This document shows positions 1-52,946 of a DNA stretch of 64,000 nt, one piece after another. Within the stretch, counting starts at the first letter, position 1. Each line of letters begins with the position of its first letter. A program made the translations under genes and the position numbers. Origin of the DNA: an uncultured Leptolyngbyaceae cyanobacterium (GTDB lineage: Bacteria; Cyanobacteriota; Cyanobacteriia; Leptolyngbyales; Leptolyngbyaceae); the NCBI GenBank assembly GCA_938023035.1, contig CALIDI010000006.1:1-64000 (forward strand), read 5' to 3'. Below the pieces are notes generated by a model. It was not told the DNA's origin and did no database searches. It saw nothing but the letters and a program-made list of their open reading frames with translations.

Positions 1-13
1 GTGCGATGTGTCA

Positions 14-700
14 ACGACAAACTACCTCAAACCCTTACAGGGATTGAAACGAAAACCACCGGCGCAACAATCTAGGTATATTTAACGACAAACTACCTCA
101 AACCCTTACAGGGATTGAAACTGGTTAGGGATTATGTGCAGGAAGGCATAAGAACCCGTAACGACAAACTACCTCAAACCCTTACAGGGATTGAAACCGA
201 AACCGTAGCAGTGGTGGATTTTGGATATCACCACGACAAACTACCTCAAACCCTTACAGGGATTGAAACGCGCGCCACACCTGAAGCTCATCATCCAGCA
301 GGCGGACGACAAACTACCTCAAACCCTTACAGGGATTGAAACCTGTTCATCCTTCATCGCCCAGAGAACAGTAAGCACGACAAACTACCTCAAACCCTTA
401 CAGGGATTGAAACCGGATTCCTTTCTTGACTGCTTTGCGCGATGAACGACGACAAACTACCTCAAACCCTTACAGGGATTGAAACAACTGTAAACCAAAC
501 CCCAAATTGAGCAGAACTGAGACGACAAACTACCTCAAACCCTTACAGGGATTGAAACAAGGTTTCCGGTTGAATCAACAACCGGTGGATCTACGACAAA
601 CTACCTCAAACCCTTACAGGGATTGAAACTTGTCAAAATAAGGCCACGTGACTGAGTTTATAGGCAACAAAGTACTTCAAGTCCTTACAGGGATTTAAAT
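14..700 (+). CRISPR. CRISPR array, trailer end; nine intact repeats plus one degenerate repeat
   Basis: Nine identical 37-nt repeats start at 14, 85, 161, 233, 306, 377, 449, 522 and 593. A tenth, at 664-700, differs at 8 of 37 positions. Spacers are 34, 39, 35, 36, 34, 35, 36, 34 and 34 nt. The repeat begins ACGACAAACTACC and ends GGGATTGAAAC; the last eight bases match the 5' handle typical of cyanobacterial crRNAs, so the + strand is inferred to be crRNA sense. A degenerate repeat normally marks the leader-distal end, which agrees: the leader and any cas genes would lie left of the window, and bases 1-13 are probably part of another spacer. No cas gene is seen here, so the subtype cannot be set. 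Confidence 0.98.
664..700 (+). repeat. Degenerate terminal CRISPR repeat
   Basis: This 37-nt unit aligns without gaps to the array repeat and keeps CCTTACAGGGATT, but has eight substitutions, including the final C changed to T. It follows a normal 34-nt spacer. It is probably the oldest, trailer-side repeat of the array. Confidence 0.9.
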
Positions 701-718
701 GCGACATTAGATCAGCCA

Positions 719-940
719 TTGGCTCCAAGTCGCAAAGGGGCAATGTACTCTGATGGAGACCATCAAGTGGTCAATGGGATCACTTACGAGCTTCGCAATT
801 CATGTTGGCACCGCGTCGATCCCAAGGATGACCCAGTAGCCGCACTGATTAAAGCGCAGGAGGAATTAGATGAAGAAGAAACGGAAGGATTTGAGCAGAC
901 CGAAACTGCCGGCGAATCCGAACCCACTTTCGATGGATGA
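719..940 (+). CDS. Hypothetical acidic protein, possibly a fragment
   Basis: This 73-codon frame starts with TTG at 719 or ATG at 743. It is also open upstream into the degenerate CRISPR repeat, so the true 5' end is unclear and it may be a decayed remnant. The middle is ordinary globular-looking sequence (VNGITYELRNSCWHRVD). The C-terminal third is very acidic, rich in Glu and Asp. I do not recognise the family. It lies just upstream of a helicase remnant in the same orientation and overlaps a small ORF, a layout that suggests leftovers of a mobile-element gene set. That origin is inference. Confidence 0.4.
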   Translation: MAPSRKGAMYSDGDHQVVNGITYELRNSCWHRVDPKDDPVAALIKAQEELDEEETEGFEQTETAGESEPTFDG

Positions 941-965
941 ACTGGCGGACAGTCTGAATAAATAG
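870..965 (+). CDS. Small basic ORF, 31 aa
   Basis: The ATG at 870 has a strong ribosome-binding site (AGGAGG at 859-864) and reads 31 codons to TAG at 963-965. The product begins MKKKRKDLSRPKLPANP and ends with a short acidic stretch, MDELADSLNK. It overlaps the end of the 719-940 frame by 71 bases. The good Shine-Dalgarno is the main support; there is no family assignment. It may be an intact small gene of the same decayed module or a chance frame. Confidence 0.35.
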   Translation: MKKKRKDLSRPKLPANPNPLSMDELADSLNK

Positions 966-971
966 CAATAA

Positions 972-1324
972 TGTAGCGATGCCGGGGATGTCAATGGAGC
1001 ACCTGGCAGCACTAGCGATCGCGGAGGCTCTGGAGAGGGCGTTACCCCCCGGATCGTCACTGCACGACCCGAACTTAATGCTACCGTCGATACCAGCCGA
1101 ATTCCTGAACGACTTCGGGAACACCTAAAGGAGCATCAGCAGCAAGGTGCTGCCCTCGCTATTCAGGTTATGATGCGGGGGGCAGTTTTTTGCTGGTCGG
1201 CGGGACAGGTGCCGGTAAATCGCGTCAAATTCTGGCGATCGCTCAAACCTGGCAACAAATCACTCCAAACCCTTGCGAGGATTCAAACAAAATTTTTCTG
1301 GGGCCTTGTGGTTCTCAGGCCTAA
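972..1324 (+). pseudogene. Remnant of a strawberry-notch/SNF2-like helicase N-terminus
   Basis: The frame from 972 encodes a Gly/Ser-rich stretch and then a region ending IPERLREHLKEHQQQGAA, typical of the segment before the first helicase motif. After a frameshift in the G6 or T6 runs near 1177-1191 the other frame continues with a Walker A-like GGTGAGKSRQILAIAQTW. Only this N-terminal piece survives; the frame closes at TAA 1322-1324, after running into a decayed CRISPR repeat at 1252. There is no credible start codon. The strawberry-notch assignment comes from motif memory and is moderate; the broken P-loop ATPase reading is firmer. A sequencing error could explain the frameshift but not the missing C-terminal bulk. 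Confidence 0.6.
1252..1288 (+). repeat. Decayed CRISPR repeat outside the array
   Basis: This 37-nt segment aligns without gaps to the array repeat with 27 of 37 identities, keeping CAAACCCTT in the middle and ending TTCAAAC. It lies 551 bases past the array. A second, weaker match (about 16 of the first 25 positions, then a one-base shift) starts at 1333, leaving a 44-nt gap that resembles a spacer. Together they suggest the relic of an older array segment. Confidence 0.55.
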
Positions 1325-1353
1325 AAGCCCTAGCAATAAACGATTCTGAACCC

Positions 1354-4300
1354 TTACCAGGGGTTACCGACCATTGTAAATGGCGACCAGAAGAAGGGAT
1401 GGCGCAGATCAGTGATTTCCTGTTCTTGCAGATTGGCAGGCAAATCTAGAGGGGTGTTGCCTAATCCGATCAGTTGGCGATCGCTGACACTGACTTCTCC
1501 CTTCAACAGAGCCAGTTGGGCTTGTCGTAGGGCCTCTGACTTAATCGGCACCTGACGTAGACTATCGTAGAACTTGCCCATCAACGCTAGGGTACCAATG
1601 TCACTGACATACCAGAGGCTACCCAGGGCAGATTTAGAGCCAGCCTTAATGGCCATGCCAGCAAAACCCAGCTCGGCATCGCGATCGCCCAAAGCAGTAC
1701 GGCAGGCGCTCAGCACCAGCAGTTGAGCGGGGGGATTGTTCAGCCCCAACTGACGAAGTTGATCGAGTTGAAGTTTGGTATCCCCCAATTGCACATAGGA
1801 GTTGCTTGGATCCTTTGGCCGAAACTCACCATGCGTTGCCAAGTGGACAATGCCAAAGGGCTGCTGCTGTCGCGATGACTTGAGATTGCTCAGAGTAAAT
1901 CTCTCATCCGGCAATACAGAGGCATTCCACAACTGCTGAATGGTTTGTAACTCCAAGGGTACGGCGGGGAGATGACGCTGGTTGGCGAACTCGGCGGTGC
2001 CCATGGCTAATACCTTAGTCTGACGCACATCCACATAGCGAGTGTCGGTGAGACTGAGACTAGGCATCAGGCCAATGCTATACTGCTCTACCAAAAATTC
2101 GTCCTGGGGATTTTGCAGTGCTGCTACGGGCAGCGATCGCAGCTGCTCATCCATCACAAACACCAGGTTATTGATTTCCCGTGCTTGCAGGGTGGGCAAG
2201 ATTGGCGCAATTAACCATTGGTAGAGTTGTCGTGCCGATTGTTGGTAGCTGACAGTGCGGGTTTTGCGGCGATCAGACACTTCTGAACGAAACTCCTGAG
2301 TGACCGCCACCAGGTCTTTGCGGCTAAGCCCCCGCAGCCGGATCCGCACAGGCTCCCCTTTCGCTGTCACCACCAAAATTTCGACCCCATCGTCGTCTCT
2401 AGTTTCGACAGAAAGCCCTCCTCCAGGCAGATTGGGTTCCTTCAGATAAGCTGTATAGGCTTCTGAAAAGGCCGCTTCCTGGCTGGTAAAGTTCAGACCC
2501 GCCCCAAACCGGGTAGGAATAAAGCGAATATAGATCAAAGCTGGACGCACGCCGGTTTCTCGCTCAATGTTTTGCAAGATCTGCTGGGCTTCATCTAGGG
2601 TTTTGACCGTTGTAAACGGAGTGCCTGGGGGTAAGGACGGGCGTGGGTCGGCCTGGGGTGGCTCTGGAAAGCGTGGCTCTGGGGGGCGCGGCTCTTCTAT
2701 AACAGGCGGAGCCGGCTGGGTCTGGGTGAGCAGGTTAATCGGTGCTGGGGTTGAGAGCGAGACCCCATCACTGGCTTGCAGGCTAAACGCCGTAAATTCT
2801 CCCGCTAGCCCTGGTGGTGGCACATACTCAAAGTTATCGCCAGGGCCAATCACAGTACCGACGGTGACTGCTACCCCATTTACCCGGAGAGTAGCCCCAG
2901 GAGCAATCGCTGCAATTTGAATCTGAGTGACATCCAGGTTGAGATCGGTGATGGTGGTTGCCAAGTCTGCAAAGGTAAAAGCGATGGGTTGATCGACCAG
3001 AGTGGGAGGCAGGGCTGTAATCGCCGCGATCGCCGGGGGAGTATTAATCGAGCGAATTGTAATCCCCGCCGGGGTACCGGTCGCATCACCACCATTGGGC
3101 AACACTGGGAAGCTACCACTCGTCAACAGGGTGGGAGTCGCATCATTCCCTGTGCGAATCCCATCAGATAGACCATTAACGGCTGCGTTGCCAATTACAA
3201 ACGGTACATTCGTTGGCCCACCATCATGTTGTAGTGTGACAGTTCCACCAGTAATCGTTGTCACGCTTCCATTCGCATTCGCTTGCGCATCAATGGTAAA
3301 TTCCTCATTCAGACCGACATCCGTCCCTCGGACAGTGCCCTGGGCCAATACCTGAACGTTACCGCCCCTAGCATTGGCAGGCCCCTCTCCGGCGTTATCG
3401 GCAAAGGCCGCTGCATCAATGCTGGTAAACACAATGTTGTTGCCCACAGTCGGGGTTTCCAGGGTGACATTCCCTGCCTGGCTAGTGGCTGTGGCAGAGG
3501 AAGACGACGTGGAAGTACTGGCACTGGTAAAAACCCGACCCACCTGAAGCGAGCCATTTTGTACCGACAGGGCCACCCTGCCGCCCTGGGCTTCTACCCC
3601 ATAAATACTGCTATTGGCAAAGGCATCGGTAAAAATATCTTGGGCCACTAGCCCACTACCTGCCTCAGCTTCTACAGTGCCTGCCTGGGCTTGGCTGTTG
3701 CTGAAGCTACTGAAGTTAGAGGCCGAGGTATCGATATCAGCCACGGTGATCAAGCCATTCAGAGCCTGCAAGCGAATATTCCCGCTAGTAGCTGTGCGCT
3801 GCTCTCCCACCGCCGAGGTGTCAATCGTACCTGTTTGAATATTGCCGGTTCGGGCAAGCAGGTCAACCCGACCACCGGTTGCTGGCAAAAAGGTTTCACT
3901 GGCGTTGGCTGAGGCATTGATATTGCCGGTTGTAATGTTGCCCTGGGCGTCGAGAATGACTGGACCACCAATCCGCGCGATCGGAAACTCCCCACCCAGC
4001 ACGTCAAAATTAGAGGTGTCGATGTTGCCGTTGACTGTAATGTTACCAGGAGTCGTAGGCGCAGGCGTGGTTACGAGACCTCCTGGGGGCGTGCCAATGA
4101 CTTCTGGGGCCGCCACTGCTGTACCTGCCCGCAAAATCAGGGCAGGGGTCGTGGTCAGCAGGGTCGCATCCGGGTCACTCGTCGGGATTGTGACATCTGG
4201 CCCGGTAATCTGAATATCGCCGTTTACCGTAATGTTGCCCCCGGCCTCGACCTTTAGTGCCACACCAGTATAGGAGCCAAAGGTGACATCTCCTGTGGAG

Positions 4301-6390
4301 CGAATGATCGGGTCATAGAGACTGACGAATTGCCCAGTCCCTCCGCTGAGAGTGCGGAGGGAAAAATTGCCACCGCTCCAGAAGTGGGCATCGCCAGAAA
4401 TGACCCCATTACTCACTAGACTTAAATCGCCCCCACTCTGGAAAGGCGTCGTAGGGTGATTCAACGCTAGAATATCAATGCCCTGGTTGCCCTGAATCGT
4501 CAGGTGGCGGCCCGCCGTTACCAACACAGGCTGGGTCTCACTATCTCGAATTTGTACCCGATCCTGGCTGTTGAGAAAGGCATCTTCCTGAGCATGCAGT
4601 TGCGAATCTGTTAGCCGCAGGGTTGCCCGCGCCTCGATTTGAATCGTGTTTCCCACTAAGCGAGACTGGCTACCGACAAGAGCCACATCCCCCGGCTGAA
4701 TTGCCAGCCCGCTACTGGTTCTAACGGTACCATTGTCATTGGTCAATCCGGTTTGGTTGGCGGCCAAGTCGGCCAGAGATGCTGCCGGAGCCGGGGTTGG
4801 CAAGGTACCCGGAGCTTGCATCTCAATCGTCAAGGGACTACCCGCTTGGCTAATGCGTACCACCGACGAACCGGGCACTGTGGCAATTACCAACCCACCG
4901 GGAGCATTGATTTGCCCGATGTTGATCACTGTGCCACCCAGCAAATTGAGCGATCGCCCCGGCTGCAAAGTCAGGTTGCCCGCATTTAAAATTCCCCCCG
5001 GTTGCGCTAGGGAAAACGCCAGGCTGCTGGGAGTTCCAGTCAAATTAGCATAGGGATTACTGCCAACACTACTAAACCACTGGTCACCAAACCCAATGGC
5101 ATTGGCCGTTGTAGCAGTAAATGAACCCGGTAGGTCTAAGCGCGCATTGGGCCCAAACACAATCCCAGAAGGGTTCATCAAAAACAGATTGGCATTACTG
5201 CCCGACACCCGCAGCACTCCATCAATCACAGAGGCTTCTCCGGCAGCCACCCGGCCCAAAATGTTGCGGATTTGGGGCACCGCTAAAAAGTTAGCGACTT
5301 GGTTCGCATCCAGGCCAAACCGAGAAAAGCTATGGAATAGGTTGGCTCCATCTCTAGAAAGTTGCCCGCCCGTAATATCAAACTGATTGTTAACCTGGTT
5401 AACCTGGGTGTTGGTGCCATCAACAGCGGGGGCAACCGCCTGAGCCACTAGCAGTGGTTCTGGTGAGCCAGGAAGCGTTTCTGGGCGAGCCATATTGCCA
5501 GGTAAGGCCGGGTCACTCAGTTGAAACCGGGGAATCATCTGAGTTTCTCTAGGAGCAGAGGGGGCCAGTTGAAACGCTGGGGGCGCAGCTACGGTTGGCT
5601 GGCTTCCGAGCAAAGGTAACCCCACCAGCATCAGACCCGTGCCTGCTGTTACCAGAGGTCGCCGCTGCCTAGGCCCTGTCACAGCTAGAGACCGCGATCG
5701 CCACCGCTGTAAAGCCGCCTCACGCGCAAGGATGCATTGCTCTTCCTGGTGATTGCGCCGCTGATTTGATGTACTCTCCCCATGGCAGCGGTAGTAGTAA
5801 AGGGGCCGCGGCAAATGATGAATCGCCGTCACTTCTGACAGTCGCAGACATAGCTCATAATCTTCAGCCGTGTTGTAGCGAGGATCAACGCCACCAACCT
5901 GTTCATATACACTGCGGCGCAACAGGCGAAAATGGAAAGTCATGAACTTCTCTAGTAAAGCCCCTGGGGAATAGGGCACCCGACAACGGCCACCGTAGCC
6001 CGTCACCTGCGTCTGGGCATTGATCACCTGGTAATCGGTGTAAACCATGCCAACACTAGGGCTTTGAGCCAACACTGCTACCGTTTCTGCCAAAGCCTCT
6101 GGTGCTAACAAATCGTCACTATCGATCCAGGCCAAGTATTGCCCCTGAGTTTGCGCGATCGCGGCTTTAAGACTGGCAGCAAAACCCTGATGGGCACCAA
6201 CCATTGCCCGCACCCGTGGATCCTGCTGGGCATAGTGGCGGGCAATTACCAGGGATTGATCCGTAGAACCGTCATCCCACAACAGCAGCTCAAAATCCCG
6301 ATAGGTTTGGGCCAGGATGCTGCTAATCGTCGCGCTGAGATAGCGATCGCGGTTATGAAAAACAGTGATGAGAGAAACGGTAGGGGACAT
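1354..6390 (-). CDS. GT2 glycosyltransferase - TPS exoprotein - CHAT protease fusion (1678 aa)
   Basis: Residues 1 to about 230 form a GT-A glycosyltransferase family 2 domain (VSLITVFHNRDRYL, DDGST, WIDSDDLL). Residues 237-268 look like a Sec signal peptide (PRQRRPL, a hydrophobic core, then TVAA). A filamentous haemagglutinin TPS domain follows from about 320 (NLFLMNPSGIVFGPNA), then a long beta-helix-like region with GNI-type repeats, a cadherin-like stretch and a Pro-rich linker. The end, from about 1350, is a CHAT caspase-like domain with the dyad H1520 (HLATHG) and C1563 (LSACRTA). The partner transporter is divergent at 6809. A GTG at 5682 would start a conventional secreted form without the GT2 part, but has no clear ribosome-binding site. 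TPS and CHAT domains together are known in cyanobacteria; the GT2 fusion is odd. Confidence 0.9.
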   Translation of the reverse strand: MSPTVSLITVFHNRDRYLSATISSILAQTYRDFELLLWDDGSTDQSLVIARHYAQQDPRVRAMVGAHQGFAASLKAAIAQTQGQYLAWIDSDDLLAPEALAETVAVLAQSPSVGMVYTDYQVINAQTQVTGYGGRCRVPYSPGALLEKFMTFHFRLLRRSVYEQVGGVDPRYNTAEDYELCLRLSEVTAIHHLPRPLYYYRCHGESTSNQRRNHQEEQCILAREAALQRWRSRSLAVTGPRQRRPLVTAGTGLMLVGLPLLGSQPTVAAPPAFQLAPSAPRETQMIPRFQLSDPALPGNMARPETLPGSPEPLLVAQAVAPAVDGTNTQVNQVNNQFDITGGQLSRDGANLFHSFSRFGLDANQVANFLAVPQIRNILGRVAAGEASVIDGVLRVSGSNANLFLMNPSGIVFGPNARLDLPGSFTATTANAIGFGDQWFSSVGSNPYANLTGTPSSLAFSLAQPGGILNAGNLTLQPGRSLNLLGGTVINIGQINAPGGLVIATVPGSSVVRISQAGSPLTIEMQAPGTLPTPAPAASLADLAANQTGLTNDNGTVRTSSGLAIQPGDVALVGSQSRLVGNTIQIEARATLRLTDSQLHAQEDAFLNSQDRVQIRDSETQPVLVTAGRHLTIQGNQGIDILALNHPTTPFQSGGDLSLVSNGVISGDAHFWSGGNFSLRTLSGGTGQFVSLYDPIIRSTGDVTFGSYTGVALKVEAGGNITVNGDIQITGPDVTIPTSDPDATLLTTTPALILRAGTAVAAPEVIGTPPGGLVTTPAPTTPGNITVNGNIDTSNFDVLGGEFPIARIGGPVILDAQGNITTGNINASANASETFLPATGGRVDLLARTGNIQTGTIDTSAVGEQRTATSGNIRLQALNGLITVADIDTSASNFSSFSNSQAQAGTVEAEAGSGLVAQDIFTDAFANSSIYGVEAQGGRVALSVQNGSLQVGRVFTSASTSTSSSSATATSQAGNVTLETPTVGNNIVFTSIDAAAFADNAGEGPANARGGNVQVLAQGTVRGTDVGLNEEFTIDAQANANGSVTTITGGTVTLQHDGGPTNVPFVIGNAAVNGLSDGIRTGNDATPTLLTSGSFPVLPNGGDATGTPAGITIRSINTPPAIAAITALPPTLVDQPIAFTFADLATTITDLNLDVTQIQIAAIAPGATLRVNGVAVTVGTVIGPGDNFEYVPPPGLAGEFTAFSLQASDGVSLSTPAPINLLTQTQPAPPVIEEPRPPEPRFPEPPQADPRPSLPPGTPFTTVKTLDEAQQILQNIERETGVRPALIYIRFIPTRFGAGLNFTSQEAAFSEAYTAYLKEPNLPGGGLSVETRDDDGVEILVVTAKGEPVRIRLRGLSRKDLVAVTQEFRSEVSDRRKTRTVSYQQSARQLYQWLIAPILPTLQAREINNLVFVMDEQLRSLPVAALQNPQDEFLVEQYSIGLMPSLSLTDTRYVDVRQTKVLAMGTAEFANQRHLPAVPLELQTIQQLWNASVLPDERFTLSNLKSSRQQQPFGIVHLATHGEFRPKDPSNSYVQLGDTKLQLDQLRQLGLNNPPAQLLVLSACRTALGDRDAELGFAGMAIKAGSKSALGSLWYVSDIGTLALMGKFYDSLRQVPIKSEALRQAQLALLKGEVSVSDRQLIGLGNTPLDLPANLQEQEITDLRHPFFWSPFTMVGNPW

Positions 6391-6808
6391 AGGCGTAGAG
6401 AGGAGATGGGGTCAAGGGTAGCGGGGAGAAGGAAAGGAAGTCTCAAGCTTTGGAGGTTGCTGAATCTGGAGATGAATCACCCAATTCGCCTTCTTCCAAA
6501 AGGAGAGGGAACAGCATTTCTTGCTATCCTTTTCCCATTGGGAGAAGGGTATCACCCTAACGGGCATTTAACGAAACGGGCATTTAACGAAGAGGATGGG
6601 GACAATGTATTCTTTCGTTAAGCAACGCCGAATTTTGCATGACATTCTATTTCCCTGCTCAGCTAACCATCTTTCTTTGTAGCTACCGTTTCATGGCGAT
6701 CGCAGCTTCCTCAGGAATTTCCCATAAATCATTGCAAAATATTTTTTATGCGGATGAGCGGAGGGTAGCAGCGTATTCATGAGCCAATCGCTGTGTTTTT
6801 GGTGAGTT
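6391..6808. other. Divergent intergenic region with a dispersed-repeat relic
   Basis: These 418 bases separate the divergent exoprotein and transporter genes and should hold both promoters. Positions about 6475-6600 carry a C/T-rich segment containing CCCATTGGGAGAAGGG and a tandem CGGGCATTTAACGAA unit, which resembles other intergenic repeats in this window (19808, 33320, 58735). I see no convincing gene. Confidence 0.5.
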
Positions 6809-8923
6809 ATGGTCACGCCTGTTTTGCCCCCACCCCTGCCACCGAGCAATGTTTACCCCATTGCCGTTGCCGTGGAGGTTGCGTCTCAGCAAGAGGAGCA
6901 ACCTCCTTCATTTCCAGGGGAAGTGCTACCACCAGAAGAGTCAAGCTTAGAGTTTTCGCAAGCGCGCCCCCAACCTAGCGGCTTTGTGGTTGAGGCCAGT
7001 GTAGCCCCCCCGACTCCAGTGGCGGAAAAAAAAGGTGAACCGGCTATCAGTTCTAGGGCGATCGCCCCAGAACCGGTAGAACCAGCTTTAGAAAAAGCCG
7101 CACCTAAATCAAAGCCACATGAGCCACAGTTGCAAAGCTCTAAACAAGCGATCCAGGCCGAATGGTCAGAGGTTAACCCCCAAGTGGCATTGCCTGTTGT
7201 TGCATCGGCTCCAGAAAAGCCAGTGCTCAGAGTAGTAGCCGAGTGTGGAACAGGCGAGCAGGTGTGTCAGGCGCCTGCCATGCCGCAGGCGATGCAACCG
7301 GCGGCCCAACCACCAGAACCAGGCACAGCAAGTTCTAAGTTTCAGCAACTTTCCCAGGCGTTTCAGGCCGTGCCAGCACCCATCGATGGAACTCCGCCCA
7401 ACGCTAGCCCTAGCCTGGAAACGCGCACAGTAGAAGTGCAGAAAATTCAAGTAGTAGGCAGCACGATTCTGACATTGCAAGAGCTAGAACCTCTGGTACA
7501 ACCCCTACAAAATCGCACAGTCACTCTGGAGGATCTAGAAAACCTAGCGGATAAAATTACCCAGCTTTACTTGCAACGGGGATTTTTGACATCACGAGCC
7601 ATTCTTGACCAGGGCGGCATCGTTAATGGGGTTGTGCCCATTTGGGTCATTGAAGATACCCTGGAAGACATTCAAATTGAGGGGTTACAGCGGCTGAAGC
7701 CAGATTATTTGCGCAGCCGAATTCGGCGAGCCGCAGGTACCCCGATTAATGTGGGTCAGCTTGAGGAGCAGCTGCGCCTACTGCGCGCCGACCCCCTGTT
7801 TGAAAACGTTGAGGCAACGCTACGAGTGGGTAGTGGGGTGGGTAAAACCGTGCTCGCGGTACGAGCCACAGAGGCAAAATCTTTCTCTGGAAATGTGTTT
7901 TCTAACAACTACTCCCCCCCGAGTGTGGGTGGAGAGCAGTTTGGTACGACGCTCTCCTATCGCAACCTGACGGGGAATGGGGATTTACTATTTGGTGGTT
8001 ATCGGCGATCGGCAACGGGCGGTTCAGAGACCATTGACCTGGGTTACCAGATTCCTGTCAGCCCCAGTGAAGCAACGCTGCAACTCAGAGCAAGCTGGAG
8101 CAACAATAAAATCACCCAGGCTCCCTTTGATGTCTTGGGTATTCGGGCTAATTCTGAACTCTATGAGGTCAATTTTCGCCAGCCTCTGATTCGCAGTTCC
8201 CGTGAGGAGTTGGCCCTTTCTTTAGGGTTTGCTTACCAAAATGGTCAGACCTTTATCTTTAATAACACCCCCTTCTTCTTTGGGGTCGGGCCAGATGCGA
8301 ATGGGGTGAGCCGCACAAGTGTGATTAGGTTTGGTCAGGAGTATGTCCGACGAGACCCAGCCGGAGCCTGGGCCTTTCGCTCGCTGTTTAGCCTGGGCAC
8401 CGGGTTATTTGGGGCCACCAAAAATCCAGGGTCTGCTATTCCCGATGGTCAGTTTTTTGCCTGGCTGGGGCAGGCTCAGCGGGTGCAACGATTGGGGAAT
8501 GACCATCTGCTGATCGCTCAGGCCGACGTGCAACTCACCCCCGATAGTCTCCTACCTTCTCAACAGTTTGTGATTGGCGGTGGGCAGTCGGTGCGGGGCT
8601 ATCGTCAAAATGCTCGCTCGGGTGACAACGGTTTTCGCTTTTCGGTAGAAGATCGCATTGCCCTACAACGGGATGCCAACGGTAGCCCAATTCTACAATT
8701 GGCCCCCTTTGTTGAGATGGGTACTGTTTGGAATCAGCGCAGCAACCCTAATCTGCTCCCCGATCGCAACTTTCTGGCCAGTATTGGTCTGGGTTTACTC
8801 TGGCAACCAATCCCCAAATTAAACATCCGCGTTGACTATGGTCTCCCCTTGGTGCGTCTCAGCGATCGCGGGAACAACATTCAAGATTCTGGGGTCTACT
8901 TTAGTGTCAATTACCAGTTTTAA
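6809..8923 (+). CDS. TpsB/ShlB-family outer-membrane transporter for two-partner secretion (704 aa)
   Basis: This is the outer-membrane pore that exports a TPS exoprotein, most likely the divergent protein ending at 6390. The first ~215 residues are Pro/Gln/Glu-rich and low in complexity. Residues ~215-290 are a POTRA_2 domain (EVQKIQVVGSTIL), a second POTRA follows to ~350, and ~365-704 form the ShlB beta-barrel with the conserved VRGY motif and a terminal Phe. The start is forced to ATG 6809 because TGA lies in frame at 6803-6805; an in-frame ATG at 6779 precedes that stop. No clear Sec signal is visible at this start, which is unusual for an outer-membrane protein, so the extreme N-terminus may be damaged or mis-set. 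Confidence 0.93.
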   Translation: MVTPVLPPPLPPSNVYPIAVAVEVASQQEEQPPSFPGEVLPPEESSLEFSQARPQPSGFVVEASVAPPTPVAEKKGEPAISSRAIAPEPVEPALEKAAPKSKPHEPQLQSSKQAIQAEWSEVNPQVALPVVASAPEKPVLRVVAECGTGEQVCQAPAMPQAMQPAAQPPEPGTASSKFQQLSQAFQAVPAPIDGTPPNASPSLETRTVEVQKIQVVGSTILTLQELEPLVQPLQNRTVTLEDLENLADKITQLYLQRGFLTSRAILDQGGIVNGVVPIWVIEDTLEDIQIEGLQRLKPDYLRSRIRRAAGTPINVGQLEEQLRLLRADPLFENVEATLRVGSGVGKTVLAVRATEAKSFSGNVFSNNYSPPSVGGEQFGTTLSYRNLTGNGDLLFGGYRRSATGGSETIDLGYQIPVSPSEATLQLRASWSNNKITQAPFDVLGIRANSELYEVNFRQPLIRSSREELALSLGFAYQNGQTFIFNNTPFFFGVGPDANGVSRTSVIRFGQEYVRRDPAGAWAFRSLFSLGTGLFGATKNPGSAIPDGQFFAWLGQAQRVQRLGNDHLLIAQADVQLTPDSLLPSQQFVIGGGQSVRGYRQNARSGDNGFRFSVEDRIALQRDANGSPILQLAPFVEMGTVWNQRSNPNLLPDRNFLASIGLGLLWQPIPKLNIRVDYGLPLVRLSDRGNNIQDSGVYFSVNYQF

Positions 8924-8987
8924 GCACTAGGGGGCGATGCCAAAGTCGCCAAATCAAGAAACTAGCATTGCTTCCAAAAGTTATCAC

Positions 8988-10370
8988 CTACTCGGAAGGA
9001 GAAGGCTGGGTACCAAACAAGGTGCTGTACATAAGCCGATAGAGGTCTGTATTGTCGATCGTACCCTGGAGAAGAGCGGCGTTTAGCCCATGGGCCTTTG
9101 CCACGATCGCCCCAGCATTATCATTAAAACCACTCCAGGCGATCGCAAACGGAAACCGCTGCCCTTTAGCATCCTGTGCCGATAGAAAGGGAAAACTCCC
9201 CGTTCCATCTCGGCCATCCAATGGTGCACCATTCTTATTAGTGGGTGGAAGTTTTTGATTAATCGGCATCTCGCCCAGTTCTTCTCCAACAACTTCTAAC
9301 CCTCCAGCATCGCTATCTGCCGCTGTTAGTAAAAGAGTGTTAGGGTTTTGATTGATAAACTTCATCGCCAGTCCAATTGCATCATCAGCCCGCTTTACTG
9401 CTTCAATCGTCCCTCTTGCATTATTTGCATTCGCAAAATTATCACTTCCTTCTTCTTCCAAAACAACCAAGAAGGGCTTTTGTTTTTGGGAAAATTGTCT
9501 CAGAGTAACCTCAAGCATCTCAGCTACTGATGGAGCGCTTGACTCATAGAGTGGCAAAACTTGATTTCTTAAGTCTTCTTCACTAGCATCATTGTAAGTG
9601 TCATCTGCCGCAAAAACTCCTAATATCTTCTTGGTTGTGTTGGGCAAAGTCAGCAACTCTTCACGGGTATAGACAACCGTGTACCCTTTTTGTTTTGCCA
9701 ACTCAATGAGATTTATTCCATCTTCGCGGCGACTTTGATCGGCTTGAGCATAGTAGCCCGCGGTGCCCTTTGGTAAATACCACACCTCGCCGCCGCCCAA
9801 AATCACGTCAACCCCTGACTCCAGAATTTGCTTTGTAATTTCGGCGTGGGCATTCCGGTTTTTCACCTTTGCAACAAATGCACCCGTTCCGGGTTCGCTG
9901 ATGATTCCAGAATTGATCAGCGCTGTCCCATATCCGCGGGCGATCGCGGCCTGCATAATCGTTTCTGGTTTTCCAGAAGTGGCTTTTACAGGCTGTCCCG
10001 TTTCATCCAGCCCACAGGAGTCAGCTTGAACTTTTACCCCCGTCGCATGGATGACCGCCCCTGCATTCGATGTCGCTGTAAGCTGGTTTTTCAAATGCCC
10101 CAGATAAACCGCCAGATGACTCATCTGATCCCAGTTCAATCGACCATCTGGCCCATAGTGTAAAAAGCGGGCGGCTCCCCAGTGGGATAAACTGGCACCA
10201 TCAGGATGAATAAAGATGACATTCCCCATTTGAACAGATGGAGTCGGTGCAGAATCCTGGCCAGATTGCGAAGGGTTTGGGTCAGAAATCCCTGAGCAAG
10301 CCGTAATAATGAGTAGTGGGGCCAATAGAGCAACCAGCCAAGAGAAATGAAATTGCTGAAGGTACTTCAC
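8988..10370 (-). CDS. Alkaline phosphatase superfamily lipoprotein (460 aa) with atypical metal site
   Basis: The signal peptide ends in a lipobox (IITAC, Cys25), so the protein should be anchored in the periplasm or outer envelope. The overall pattern is PhoA-like: a metal Asp in HPDGAS (D57), a nucleophile region LTATSNAG (S101), an EEGSDNFANANN segment where PhoA has EGxxID...H, and TAADSDAGGLEV where PhoA has TADHETGG. By this eye alignment the three PhoA histidine ligands (E. coli H331, H370, H412) are replaced by Asn, Ser and Asn, while the acidic ligands remain. It may use other metals, have another phosphomonoester or sulfate-like substrate, or be inactive. No clear Pho box was found upstream. 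Confidence 0.82.
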   Translation of the reverse strand: MKYLQQFHFSWLVALLAPLLIITACSGISDPNPSQSGQDSAPTPSVQMGNVIFIHPDGASLSHWGAARFLHYGPDGRLNWDQMSHLAVYLGHLKNQLTATSNAGAVIHATGVKVQADSCGLDETGQPVKATSGKPETIMQAAIARGYGTALINSGIISEPGTGAFVAKVKNRNAHAEITKQILESGVDVILGGGEVWYLPKGTAGYYAQADQSRREDGINLIELAKQKGYTVVYTREELLTLPNTTKKILGVFAADDTYNDASEEDLRNQVLPLYESSAPSVAEMLEVTLRQFSQKQKPFLVVLEEEGSDNFANANNARGTIEAVKRADDAIGLAMKFINQNPNTLLLTAADSDAGGLEVVGEELGEMPINQKLPPTNKNGAPLDGRDGTGSFPFLSAQDAKGQRFPFAIAWSGFNDNAGAIVAKAHGLNAALLQGTIDNTDLYRLMYSTLFGTQPSPSE

Positions 10371-10543
10371 GGTAGTAACGGCTTACCTAGGGCTAAAGGA
10401 CTAAACAAACGAATGAATCCCACTGATTCGCCAGGGGAGAGCCAATCACCCCTGCATTGAGCGCTCTCGTTTATTATACGCGGCGAGCTTTTCAGAGAAT
10501 AAGCCACTGACAAAAAGGTAGTTTGCAGCGCCCCCAAGCCTTT

Positions 10544-48252: not shown

Positions 48253-48808
48253 AGCGCTAGCGTTCAAGCAGATCGCGGCTTGCGGGCTAAAGCCCTATTC
48301 GGTTGCCCTGCGGTTGCACTCAATCACTTTGGTCAAAACGCTTAGGGACAAAACCAAGCGCCCAAACGTCAATGCTGGGTCGGTTGTCTAGCTCGCGATC
48401 GCCACGGTCTTAACAGCAACTGACCGGTCAAAGCGGCCAGACTCTAGTCCATAAAATCATAGGGAGTACGATTTCGCAGCGTTTGTCCGATTCAATCTAG
48501 CCAAAATGGTCTAGCAAGCGCCTGATCGCTAACAAATACGCTGTGAACTACCATAGACAGTATCGGAATTCAACTTGCTAAGATGATCGAGTGGTCTTTA
48601 GTCGTCACCAATCTTGACTAGCTCTTGACCCGTTACGCAGCCTTTAGGGCAACCATGACTGTTAGCTAAGTCAGGCAGAGCCCCTACAGCTAGGCTTGTT
48701 ACAAAGCTGCTTGAAAACGCCTCCTTCTGCAGAGCTAGCAGTGGCGCATGTGAAAGTAGGTTAGACAAACTTTAGTTTTATCGTGATTTGGGCTTGCTAG
48801 AATTTGCT
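48253..48808. other. Intergenic region of about 550 bases
   Basis: No ORF or known RNA gene is recognised. A GGGCTAAAGCCC hairpin near 48294-48305 follows menF but lacks a T-run. The rest is mixed-composition sequence leading to the PP2C promoter. A small RNA here cannot be excluded. Confidence 0.4.
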
Positions 48809-51082
48809 ATGCTAACTGCTTCAGCTACCATCTATTGCCCAAATCCCCATTGCCGAGCGGCGAATCCTGAGCTAAATCGTTGTTGTCAGACCTGTGGTAC
48901 GGCAATTCCAAAGGTTTACTTGTGGGCAGTTGGCGGTGGGATAGAAGCCTATCAGCCAGGGGATTTGCTGGCGGAGCGTTATTGGGTAAAGCAAGGCCAG
49001 CTACTACTCGACACCCAACCGGGGATAGCCCCCAATGCCCCAGAAGAAATCTCCGAGATATTAGATCCCTATCTCCGCCTATTTGCTTATCAGCCTCAGG
49101 TACCGCTGGTCTATACGACACTGATTCAGGGACAGCGGCAGGGCAGTCGTGAAATGCTGCTGCTAGAGGTGCCGCTCAACCGGTTAGAGCCAGGGATTCA
49201 GCTTTTGCCCAGACTCACCGATGCCTGGGCAACGGCAACGAGTCTGCGCCAACTCAACTGGTTGTGGCAGATGGCACGGCTTTGGCAACCCCTGAACATT
49301 GAACGGGTTGCTTCTACTCTATTGACACCAGAAATCCTCCGGGTGGATGGGGCTTTACTCCATCTCTTGCAGCTACAGCCCGATGGCAAGTTAACGCCGG
49401 ATCTCAGTCACTTGGGACGGTTGTGGCAGGGTTGGATAGCGACAGCGCATCCTGATTTACAGGACTTTTTAGCAGCCCTTTGTCATCAACTGATACAGAG
49501 GCAGTTGGTGAGTAGTGGGGCACTGGTCACTATTCTAGACCGAGCTTTGACTAAAGTCGGGCAGGCCTATCAGCGCCAGGTTGTGCTGGCAACCCAGAGT
49601 GATCGCGGTCCCACTCGCCAACAAAACGAGGATGCCTGCTATCCCCCAGCGGGTACGATCAGAACAGTTGATGTCAGCCGTGAGGTCGCGCTCGTGGTTG
49701 TTTGCGATGGCATTGGTGGCCATGAAGGTGGAGATGTGGCCTCAAACTTGGCGATCGCAACGATTCAGCAACAACTCCAACCTCGATTAGAGCCTCCCGC
49801 ATTCTTGGATACCGCAGGTTGGGTCGAAGCCCTGGAAAAAGCCACATTGATTGCCAATGATGCCATCAGTCAGCGCAACGATATGGAATTGCGCCAGGAA
49901 CGTCAACGCATGGGGACAACCCTAGTCATGGGACTGGCCGCCCAACATGAACTCTATCTTGCTCATGTGGGGGACAGTCGCGCCTACCGCATTACCCCAA
50001 ATGCTTGCCAGCAAGTCACTGTAGACGATGATCTAGCCTCTCGCGAGGTGCGGCTGGGCTACAACCTTTATCGTGATGCTTTGCAACACCCAGGATCGGG
50101 GGCACTGGTGCAGGCGCTTGGGATGGGAGACTCAACCCTGGTGCATCCCACGGTGCAACGCTACATTCTGGATGAAGACTGTTTGTTTTTGCTGTGCTCT
50201 GACGGCTTGAGTGATTTTAATCGGATAGAGGAAAACTGGCATGCAGAGTTGTTGCCCGTGCTGCAAAAAAAGATCGATGTCAAGACGGCGATTGCACGGC
50301 TGGTGGCGATCGCGAATAGCCAAAATGGGCATGATAATGTCACGATTGGACTCTTGCTCTGCCAAGTGCAACCTACCAGTGTGTCTACCCCCCTGTCTGC
50401 CGATTTGGCCCTCTGCCCGTCTGATAGCAGTCATGAGTCTCAGGGGCCACCCCCCACTCAACTACTCGCTCCACCCCAGCGGTTAAACTGGTTGCCCTGG
50501 CTGGTGGCGGTGCTGGCTATGATAGGGTTAGGAGGAATGGTGGCCTATGTGCGATCGCCGGCTCTGCGTACCCTTCTAGCTCCACCACCGCAGCCGACCA
50601 GCATCGGCGAGCCAGCTCCAGATCCATCAAAACAGGAATCCTCTTCATCCACCCCGATAACCCTACCGCTCACATCGGCACTTTTACAAGTGATTCCGGC
50701 AGATCCAAGCAATGGGCAACCCCCTGCCACCTTAAACTTGCCCCTGGCAAAGGAACCTCAGAATCAATCGGTGCCCTCTGTCAGAATTCCCCAGGGCAGT
50801 CTTCTTAAGGTTATACGCCACACCGAATCAAAAGCAGGGATACTGACCACACTCAAGATTTGCTGGGTTGAACCAGAGCCAGTAGTCCGTCAAGGGGTAG
50901 CCCAAGCTGGAGATGAGGTGATGGCTGAGCTACGAGTACTCGTCTCCCGTTTAGCGATCGTAGAACCCGCCACCCTCTCCCCAAAGATCCTCCAGATAGT
51001 CGAGCAATCCTGTGCTCCTCTACCTAGCTCAACCCGTGACCTTGCCCCCCTGCCACAGCCCACTTCTTCATCGTTTCCCTGA
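48809..51082 (+). CDS. PP2C-type Ser/Thr phosphatase with zinc ribbon and membrane anchor
   Basis: The preferred start, ATG 48809, gives 757 aa. An N-terminal zinc ribbon (YCPNPHC ... CCQTCG) is followed by a ~190-residue helical region, then the PP2C catalytic domain: SDRGPTRQQNEDACYP, VVVCDGIGGHEGGDVAS (metal Asp), GTTLVMGLAA, LAHVGDSRAYRI, FLLCSDGLSDF and NGHDNVTIGLL. A membrane helix near residue 580 (WLPWLVAVLAMIGLGGMVAY) leads to a Pro/Ser-rich, probably extracytoplasmic tail with a small beta domain. It removes phosphate from Ser/Thr in partner proteins. The next gene encodes an FHA domain that reads phosphothreonine. Confidence 0.92.
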   Translation: MLTASATIYCPNPHCRAANPELNRCCQTCGTAIPKVYLWAVGGGIEAYQPGDLLAERYWVKQGQLLLDTQPGIAPNAPEEISEILDPYLRLFAYQPQVPLVYTTLIQGQRQGSREMLLLEVPLNRLEPGIQLLPRLTDAWATATSLRQLNWLWQMARLWQPLNIERVASTLLTPEILRVDGALLHLLQLQPDGKLTPDLSHLGRLWQGWIATAHPDLQDFLAALCHQLIQRQLVSSGALVTILDRALTKVGQAYQRQVVLATQSDRGPTRQQNEDACYPPAGTIRTVDVSREVALVVVCDGIGGHEGGDVASNLAIATIQQQLQPRLEPPAFLDTAGWVEALEKATLIANDAISQRNDMELRQERQRMGTTLVMGLAAQHELYLAHVGDSRAYRITPNACQQVTVDDDLASREVRLGYNLYRDALQHPGSGALVQALGMGDSTLVHPTVQRYILDEDCLFLLCSDGLSDFNRIEENWHAELLPVLQKKIDVKTAIARLVAIANSQNGHDNVTIGLLLCQVQPTSVSTPLSADLALCPSDSSHESQGPPPTQLLAPPQRLNWLPWLVAVLAMIGLGGMVAYVRSPALRTLLAPPPQPTSIGEPAPDPSKQESSSSTPITLPLTSALLQVIPADPSNGQPPATLNLPLAKEPQNQSVPSVRIPQGSLLKVIRHTESKAGILTTLKICWVEPEPVVRQGVAQAGDEVMAELRVLVSRLAIVEPATLSPKILQIVEQSCAPLPSSTRDLAPLPQPTSSSFP

Positions 51083-51269: not shown

Positions 51270-52946
51270 ATGGCTTCTGAAATTCCTTGCTTAAGTATCT
51301 CGATCGCCCCGCTGCAAAGAGTTGGGCACTATGTTCTGCATGTTACTAAGGCCCCGTTTCCCGGTGGGTTTGTTGTCAGAGAATCGGCCTGGTCAGAGCC
51401 TCTGACCAGGCGCTGGCAAGCCTGGCAAGAAATGTTTTCGACCCGCTGCGTGCCCAGGGTGCCCCAGGTGTCTCAAGTGCAGCCCCAACACCTGCCCCCC
51501 AGTTTTTTGGCCGATGAAGTCGGAGTCACGACAGAGCAACCGATCGGCTATGCTGGGCGCCTGATGCAAGATTTGGCCATTAGCCTGTGGCAATGGATAT
51601 TTGAAGGCGAAATTCAAGTCAGTTTTAACCACAGCCAGGGAATTGCGGTTGGCCAGCGTCGCCCCCTACGCCTGCGCCTAGAGTTAAGAGATCCGGATAT
51701 GATTGCCTTGCCCTGGGAAATTATGCAAGATGGTCCTGGGAAACAGGCCATTTCCCTGAGACGACAGGTGCTGTTTAGTCGCACCACATCCGATGTTCAT
51801 TCCCTCCCCACCCTCCGCACCGATCACGCCCTCAAAGTGTTGCTTGTTTTGGGTCACGATGCCGATCCCTACAGCGACCCCTCCCAGGCAAATCACTCAG
51901 CGAAATTGCTCAAACTACAACAGGAAGCAGAAACCCTGGCAAATGTGCTGCGCCAAGCTACGAGCAGTGAGGGCTTGACCAACCACATCTGTCAAGTAGA
52001 CACGCTGATACAACCGACCCCAGCCGAACTCATTCATTTCCTGGAAACCAAGGCCTACAATGTCTTGTTTTACGCAGGGCATGGGGAACCTGCTCCCGAT
52101 GGGGGGATGCTCTTTCTGCAACCGGAGATGACCCTGAATGGAACAGAGTTAGCCCAGGTTTTGACGCGTTGCCAGGTGAAGCTAGCGGTTTTTAATGCCT
52201 GCTGGGGTGCTCAACCCGATCACTATCAAGATGGCATGCATCCAGCAATGGTGCCAGAGAGCAAGGCTTCGCGGGCTATTCCTCGGAGTAGCCTAGCCGA
52301 GGTGTTGCTGCACCATGGGGTACCTGCTGTCTTGGGAATGCGAGACAGCATTACTGATGAAGAGGCCCTTAGCTTTATTCAGGTATTTGCCCGCTCGCTG
52401 GCGGAACGATTACCCATAGACGAGGCTGTTGCCGTTGCACGTCAACATCTATTGACTTTATATAAGTTTAACCAGCAGGCCTGGACTCTGCCGGTGCTTT
52501 ATATGCATCCAGAATATGATGGCGAATTGTTAAAGCCGTTAGAAGGCAGCCCTACTCAGATGCCGGGGTTAACTACCCGGATTGGCCATGCTCCGCTTGC
52601 TTCGCTGCGATCGCTCACAACCGCAAAAGTCTGGCAGATTCGAGATGGCATGATGCGGGTAGGGCGCGACAAAAGTGAGAATGACCTAGTATTGCGAGAC
52701 GACCAAGCCGGAGCCTCACGCAAACATGCCGTGATTTTTTGTCGCCAAGTCAACCGCAACGATCATAGTGAAACGCTTTACTACCTGGAAGACTTTTCTC
52801 GTTACGGTACCTGGATTTTTAGCAAGGATGGCTGGCATAAGGTGCATCGAGACGAAATCTGCCTTCATTCGGGCTATCAGATTAAGTTTGGCAGCCGCGA
52901 AAACGAGGCATTGGAGTTTGTCATCCATCCCCCCAGAGAGGGGTGA
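51270..52946 (+). CDS. CHAT protease-like - FHA domain protein (558 aa)
   Basis: The first ~190 residues form a beta-rich region (LSISIAPLQRVGHYVLHV). A CHAT caspase-like domain follows, with the dyad H271 (VLFYAGHGEP) and C311 (AVFNACWGAQ), and GVPAVLGMRDSITDEEALSF behind it. The C-terminus, from about 455, is an FHA domain with MMRVGRDKSENDLVL and GASRKHAVIF. There is no signal peptide, so it is cytoplasmic. The PP2C gene ends 187 bases upstream on the same strand. The pairing suggests that phosphorylation of a threonine target recruits a caspase-like activity and that PP2C resets it; this is inference. No kinase is found in the window. Confidence 0.9.
   Translation: MASEIPCLSISIAPLQRVGHYVLHVTKAPFPGGFVVRESAWSEPLTRRWQAWQEMFSTRCVPRVPQVSQVQPQHLPPSFLADEVGVTTEQPIGYAGRLMQDLAISLWQWIFEGEIQVSFNHSQGIAVGQRRPLRLRLELRDPDMIALPWEIMQDGPGKQAISLRRQVLFSRTTSDVHSLPTLRTDHALKVLLVLGHDADPYSDPSQANHSAKLLKLQQEAETLANVLRQATSSEGLTNHICQVDTLIQPTPAELIHFLETKAYNVLFYAGHGEPAPDGGMLFLQPEMTLNGTELAQVLTRCQVKLAVFNACWGAQPDHYQDGMHPAMVPESKASRAIPRSSLAEVLLHHGVPAVLGMRDSITDEEALSFIQVFARSLAERLPIDEAVAVARQHLLTLYKFNQQAWTLPVLYMHPEYDGELLKPLEGSPTQMPGLTTRIGHAPLASLRSLTTAKVWQIRDGMMRVGRDKSENDLVLRDDQAGASRKHAVIFCRQVNRNDHSETLYYLEDFSRYGTWIFSKDGWHKVHRDEICLHSGYQIKFGSRENEALEFVIHPPREG

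Follow-up and report, generated by a model that had tools for sequence, protein, structure and literature searches.

A glycosyltransferase domain joined through a predicted internal signal peptide to a TPS-CHAT protein in cyanobacteria

The window analysed here, a 64,000-nucleotide stretch of contig CALIDI010000006.1 from an uncultured Leptolyngbyaceae cyanobacterium, encodes on its reverse strand a protein that combines a glycosyltransferase (GT) domain, an internal signal peptide, a TPS secretion domain, a beta-rich passenger and a C-terminal CHAT domain in a single frame that stays open over its whole length (Table 1). The succession of GT2, internal signal peptide, TPS and CHAT had been proposed from a reading of the sequence alone (hereafter the original prediction), and it is borne out by Pfam searches and, for the signal peptide, by hydropathy and motif. 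The topological puzzle that the same prediction raised, a cytoplasmic-type GT on one chain with an exported protease, holds as well. The divergently oriented gene next to the fused gene encodes, as judged from its domains, the putative cognate TpsB partner of the fused protein; as at the window locus, a divergent TpsB neighbor is present at 18 of the 36 fused loci in named genomes. The spacer between these two divergent genes contains two perfect 16-base tandem copies of AACGGGCATTTAACGA (6559-6591), and a CRISPR-like array of nine near-identical repeats (CGACAAACTACCTCAAACCCTTACAGGGATTGAAAC), spaced by 71-76 bases, lies just downstream of the fused gene (13-700), with further degraded copies of the repeat at 663 and 1251. 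An Rfam scan of positions 1-10500 of the window returned no match. Elsewhere in the window, a second CHAT protein, combining CHAT with an FHA (forkhead-associated) domain (51270-52946, plus strand), adjoins a PP2C phosphatase (48788-51082).

Table 1. Coordinates of the fused gene, its parts and the neighboring TpsB gene in the window.
Feature	Residues	Position	Strand	Basis or remark
Fused gene: GT2, internal signal peptide, TPS, beta-rich passenger, CHAT		1354..6390	(-)	1678 aa (1678 codons)
GT2 (GT-A) glycosyltransferase domain	6-165	5896..6375	(-)	Pfam Glycos_transf_2 PF00535, E 1.3e-27
Internal GTG codon, alternative start of the original prediction	Val237	5680..5682	(-)	Sequence
Internal signal peptide, ending TGPRQRRPLVTAGTGLMLVGLPLLGSQPTVAA	about 237-269	5584..5682	(-)	Hydropathy and [A/V]xA motif
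TPS secretion domain (filamentous-haemagglutinin type)	324-518	4837..5421	(-)	Pfam PF05860, E 1.6e-37; TIGR01901
CHAT caspase-like protease domain	1383-1676	1363..2244	(-)	Pfam PF12770, E 1e-69
TpsB outer-membrane partner (POTRA_2 and ShlB/FhaC)		6809..8923	(+)	Pfam; divergent from the fused gene

With its C-terminal helices, the GT module extends to about residue 237. The GT-A fold, a DxD-type metal motif and a catalytic base are all present, as seen from the PF00535 match, the conserved motifs (WDDGS, DSDD and EDYDLC) and Foldseek, and residues D40, D90, D92 and D177 are invariant in an alignment of 37 fused proteins. The structure model of the GT is of high confidence, and its top Foldseek match is the chondroitin polymerase K4CP, which is also matched at the sequence level (phmmer, E 2e-29). 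The GT-A fold is shared over about 220 residues with the K4CP GT2 domain and other GT2 enzymes (2z86, SpsA), although these make polysaccharide and are not fused to an exported protein. The sequence of the GT is also similar to that of streptococcal GalT1/dGT1 (5hea; E 8e-18), a GT2-type enzyme of the Fap1 adhesin pathway that acts on an adhesin glycan. Contrary to the GT of the fusion, GalT1/dGT1 is a separate cytoplasmic protein, and its adhesin is Gram-positive. Both Pfam and Foldseek place the GT in the GT2/GT-A class and not in GT41/GT-B. At the other end of the chain, the catalytic dyad that had been predicted for the CHAT domain is intact, with His1520 (HLATHG, codon at 1831-1833) and Cys1563 (LSACRTA, codon at 1702-1704) in columns that are invariant in 33 aligned fused proteins. 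The CHAT model has a mean pLDDT of 84, its nearest Foldseek matches being Csx29/TPR-CHAT and separase proteases. The AF2 model is mostly confident over the TPS domain and of very low confidence at the junction (residues 239-315). Between close pairs, most dN/dS values of the GT lie at 0.09-0.27, with 0.44 in one little-diverged pair, and those of CHAT at 0.02-0.15; by these ratios, both domains are under purifying selection.

The segment between the GT and TPS domains, TGPRQRRPLVTAGTGLMLVGLPLLGSQPTVAA, consists of a basic stretch followed by a hydrophobic core and a VxA site, and we propose from this motif and hydropathy, on which the signal-peptide assignment is based, that signal peptidase I would cut after Ala269. 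These elements are conserved among 53 distinct fused proteins: the core is followed by an [A/V]xA signal-peptidase motif in 52 of them, by such a site and then Gln in 51, and is preceded by a positively charged n-region in 49. The hydrophobicity of the core also exceeds that of the most hydrophobic equally long stretch of TPS, taken as a control (mean 2.14 versus 1.45). While a standard TpsA has its signal peptide at the extreme N-terminus, here it stands behind about 237 GT residues, which makes the fusion a variant of the TPS exoproteins, and not a standard TpsA or a new kind of system. The signal of an exported protein normally forms its first residues. An exception that is widely kept and places a large folded enzyme ahead of the signal would bear on how Sec handles internal cleavable signals in bacteria.

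The original prediction had suggested looking for the same fusion in other cyanobacteria, and the 53 distinct fused proteins come from Leptolyngbyaceae, Nostocaceae, Coleofasciculaceae and Microcoleaceae. The window genome itself has three fusions in all, with two further paralogues on contigs C5 and C23. Among 42 genomes of the family, we found 24 further GT-TPS frames, these two paralogues included, for a total of 17 genomes including that of the window; most of these frames continue in frame to CHAT, while a contig end or a break interrupts a few of them. In named genomes, the GT is joined to TPS at 36 of the 79 loci that carry it. This GT is present in 23 genomes of a phylum-wide sample of 386, where the fusion was scored by frame length and long frames of fused size occur in two families. 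In the closest relative, from Leptolyngbyaceae M33_DOE_097, the complete arrangement is preserved, down to the divergent TpsB gene. The window genome is a draft and a few homologues are split (L051, L063/L183, L072), which could suggest a frameshift, a stop read-through or an assembly join. Against this stand dozens of independent intact fusions, some of them in single-contig genomes (G011, G015, G024), and the three fused paralogues of the window genome, so that an artefact is extremely improbable. The split pair L063/L183 was dropped as a candidate natural two-gene form: it lies on a low-coverage contig and has a second break in CHAT. The original prediction had staked itself against an assembly join and against homologues that always start at the internal site, and both are contradicted by these comparisons. 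On the evidence of the genomes, the fusion recurs far more than chance would allow and is a real, old and recurrent architecture. Literature searches, with most subscription journals outside their coverage, returned nothing relevant to it, and the GT-TPS-CHAT architecture is apparently undescribed.

Comparison with unfused relatives indicates how the fusion may have arisen. Unfused cyanobacterial TPS-CHAT proteins have the same TPS, beta-rich passenger and C-terminal CHAT of the same family, but they mostly carry an ordinary N-terminal signal peptide at the equivalent place and have no GT domain; no GT was seen in the upstream DNA examined, of which only a short length was covered for some of these proteins. 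The unfused relatives of the GT are complete enzymes as well; many have about 250-290 residues, and they end in the same RRGL...LRRK tail. The likeliest origin of the fusion is therefore the addition of a GT ahead of a TPS-CHAT protein that was already exported. The fused/unfused label switches at least six times on well-supported branches of the CHAT tree and at least three times on those of the GT tree; therefore, the joining or its loss has recurred. In the GT tree, three related proteins combine the GT and an internal signal peptide not with TPS-CHAT, but with a short Gly/Tyr/Pro-rich tail. Genes of this type, with a short Gly/Tyr/Pro-rich exported tail, are seen at L146:7462-8634, L088, L089 and L096; in the L096 type, the next gene downstream encodes a rhomboid protease. 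Some standalone GT genes adjoin type I secretion genes (HlyD, ABC with C39 peptidase; L116:5036-7372, L134:3679-8208, L154:2993-8259) and others adjoin large secreted proteins, a Pfam survey of selectively chosen loci that is no more than suggestive of a link between this GT and secretion. Very large genes are not enriched beside standalone GTs, with at least 1000 aa in 8 of 86 neighbors versus 20 of 297 genes further away (p=0.48). Standalone relatives also occur in Desulfosarcina (L126:4353-15664, L133, L148); the GT of L126 is near a phage-tail-like gene (Tail_P2_I), which suggests an injection-system cluster, and L133 has a neighboring frame similar to that of L126.

One way around the topological puzzle would be for the gene to make two products, as the original prediction envisaged. 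The ATG at 6390 would then give the full-length chain, in the cytoplasm or the membrane, and initiation at the GTG at 5682 would give a TPS-CHAT protein that is secreted in the ordinary way from a normal signal peptide. The GTG does exist, at codon 237, and would yield a good signal peptide, MTGPRQRRPLVTAGTGLMLVGLPLLGSQPTVAA; because the equivalent valine of the nearest orthologue is also encoded by GTG, a start there is possible at the window locus. As a general rule, the idea finds no support. No ATG, GTG or TTG is found 2-30 codons before the hydrophobic core in 13 of the 53 fused proteins, close to the roughly 31% expected by chance from local codon use, and in several proteins of Nostoc one has to go back 65-94 codons, into the GT domain, to reach the nearest start (L145, L147, L167, L168 and L172 are without a start codon over such distances before the core). 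Across the homologues, candidate start codons occupy no conserved position, so that no shared internal initiation site precedes the signal peptide. A Shine-Dalgarno-like motif is absent at the window GTG and at most of the candidates, and synonymous change is not lowered at the GT/TPS junction. On these grounds we reject internal initiation as the general mechanism, and we consider dual starts an unlikely account of the locus.

We therefore favor, with a probability of roughly 0.55, a reading in which a TPS exoprotein with a C-terminal CHAT domain has gained its own GT as an N-terminal extension, the GT being left inside the cell and probably glycosylating its own passenger before export. The chain would be translated whole and its GT domain would fold in the cytoplasm. 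The internal signal peptide would then enter the Sec translocon with its N-terminus inside and its C-terminus outside, and signal peptidase I would cut behind it. The GT would thereby stay in the cell with the cleaved signal helix as its anchor, and the TPS-CHAT part would cross the outer membrane via TpsB. These steps, from translation to export, are proposed on the grounds of established Sec and TPS biology and of the conserved parts. The likeliest role of the GT would be to glycosylate, ahead of export, the passenger to which it is joined, and yet this is the weakest step. At the surface, CHAT would process the passenger or neighboring proteins. For the TPS adhesin HMW1, glycosylation takes place in the cytoplasm through the dedicated HMW1C encoded beside it (PMC3983070; PMC5422565), that is, in trans; by analogy, a GT fused to its substrate would act in cis. 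Since the fusion has been conserved for long, its product is probably an exported protein accompanied by an enzyme of its own for glycosylation. More tentatively, the fused proteins may form a conserved class of self-modifying exoproteins, in which the cytoplasmic GT would glycosylate its own chain, signal peptidase I would sever it, and the glycosylated protease would be exported while the GT stays anchored in the membrane. If the GT does act in cis, this would be a compact natural design for glycosylation. The composition of the passenger was rejected as a sign of glycosylation, being a weak one in general and not supportive for the window protein, whose passenger has no enrichment in Ser/Thr or Asn sequons and lies below the mean of unfused relatives. 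The difference in passenger Ser/Thr between fused and unfused proteins is small, uncorrected and calculated ignoring kinship.

The closest solved relative of the GT being a polysaccharide enzyme, its acceptor may not be a protein. The two enzymes could be joined for co-production at a fixed ratio, with a membrane-anchored GT whose acceptor is a lipid-linked or capsular glycan and in no case its own passenger; chondroitin polymerase and the other polysaccharide GT2 enzymes as closest solved relatives, and standalone relatives that are ordinary complete GTs, agree with this possible, though less probable, arrangement. However, the GT has been joined repeatedly to two kinds of exported protein, which suggests a link with export, and standalone relatives are without an anchor, so that anchoring is not essential. 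It is rather unlikely that the hydrophobic stretch remains uncleaved as the span of a single transmembrane protein, with the GT inside and the TPS-CHAT part tethered on the periplasmic side. In Foldseek, the CHAT model weakly matches the anti-sigma factor DdvA, which has a single span and an N-terminal cytoplasmic part, but nearly all fused proteins keep the signal-peptidase motif, in most cases with Gln behind it, and the fused genes often have a TpsB partner next to them. A further possibility is that the GT simply makes the signal region longer and thereby delays export, an effect that an extended signal peptide has on FhaB (PMC5422565). For export itself, the GT is not needed, given the many TPS-CHAT proteins without one.

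Among known systems, HMW1A/HMW1B/HMW1C of Haemophilus influenzae offers the set that is predicted for the fusion as well, an exported TPS protein, a TpsB and a dedicated cytoplasmic GT (PMC3983070). In contrast, HMW1C is a separate GT-B enzyme of family GT41, whereas the GT of the fusion is of the GT2 (GT-A) type and shares its chain with the exported part, from which an internal signal peptide separates it. Polymorphic toxins are likewise large exported proteins, with caspase-like domains that self-process (PMC3482391), but no toxin tip is seen in the fused protein; in the T5SS row of that survey, HINT and not a caspase is given as the processing protease, and cyanobacteria are unlisted (PMC3482391). 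The processing proposed for the fusion also resembles that of an internally cleaved bacterial polyprotein, the cytochrome b/c1 protein FbcH of Bradyrhizobium. There, cleavage of one chain at an internal signal peptide yields one product on the inner side and one on the exported side; these are two membrane respiratory subunits, whereas the fusion combines an enzyme and a secreted protease. Fused and unfused relatives, found even within one genus, provide a ready comparison. At one locus (L172:7486-15667), the gene directly after a fused GT-TPS-CHAT gene is an unfused TPS-CHAT paralogue, whose product has an N-terminal signal peptide of its own.
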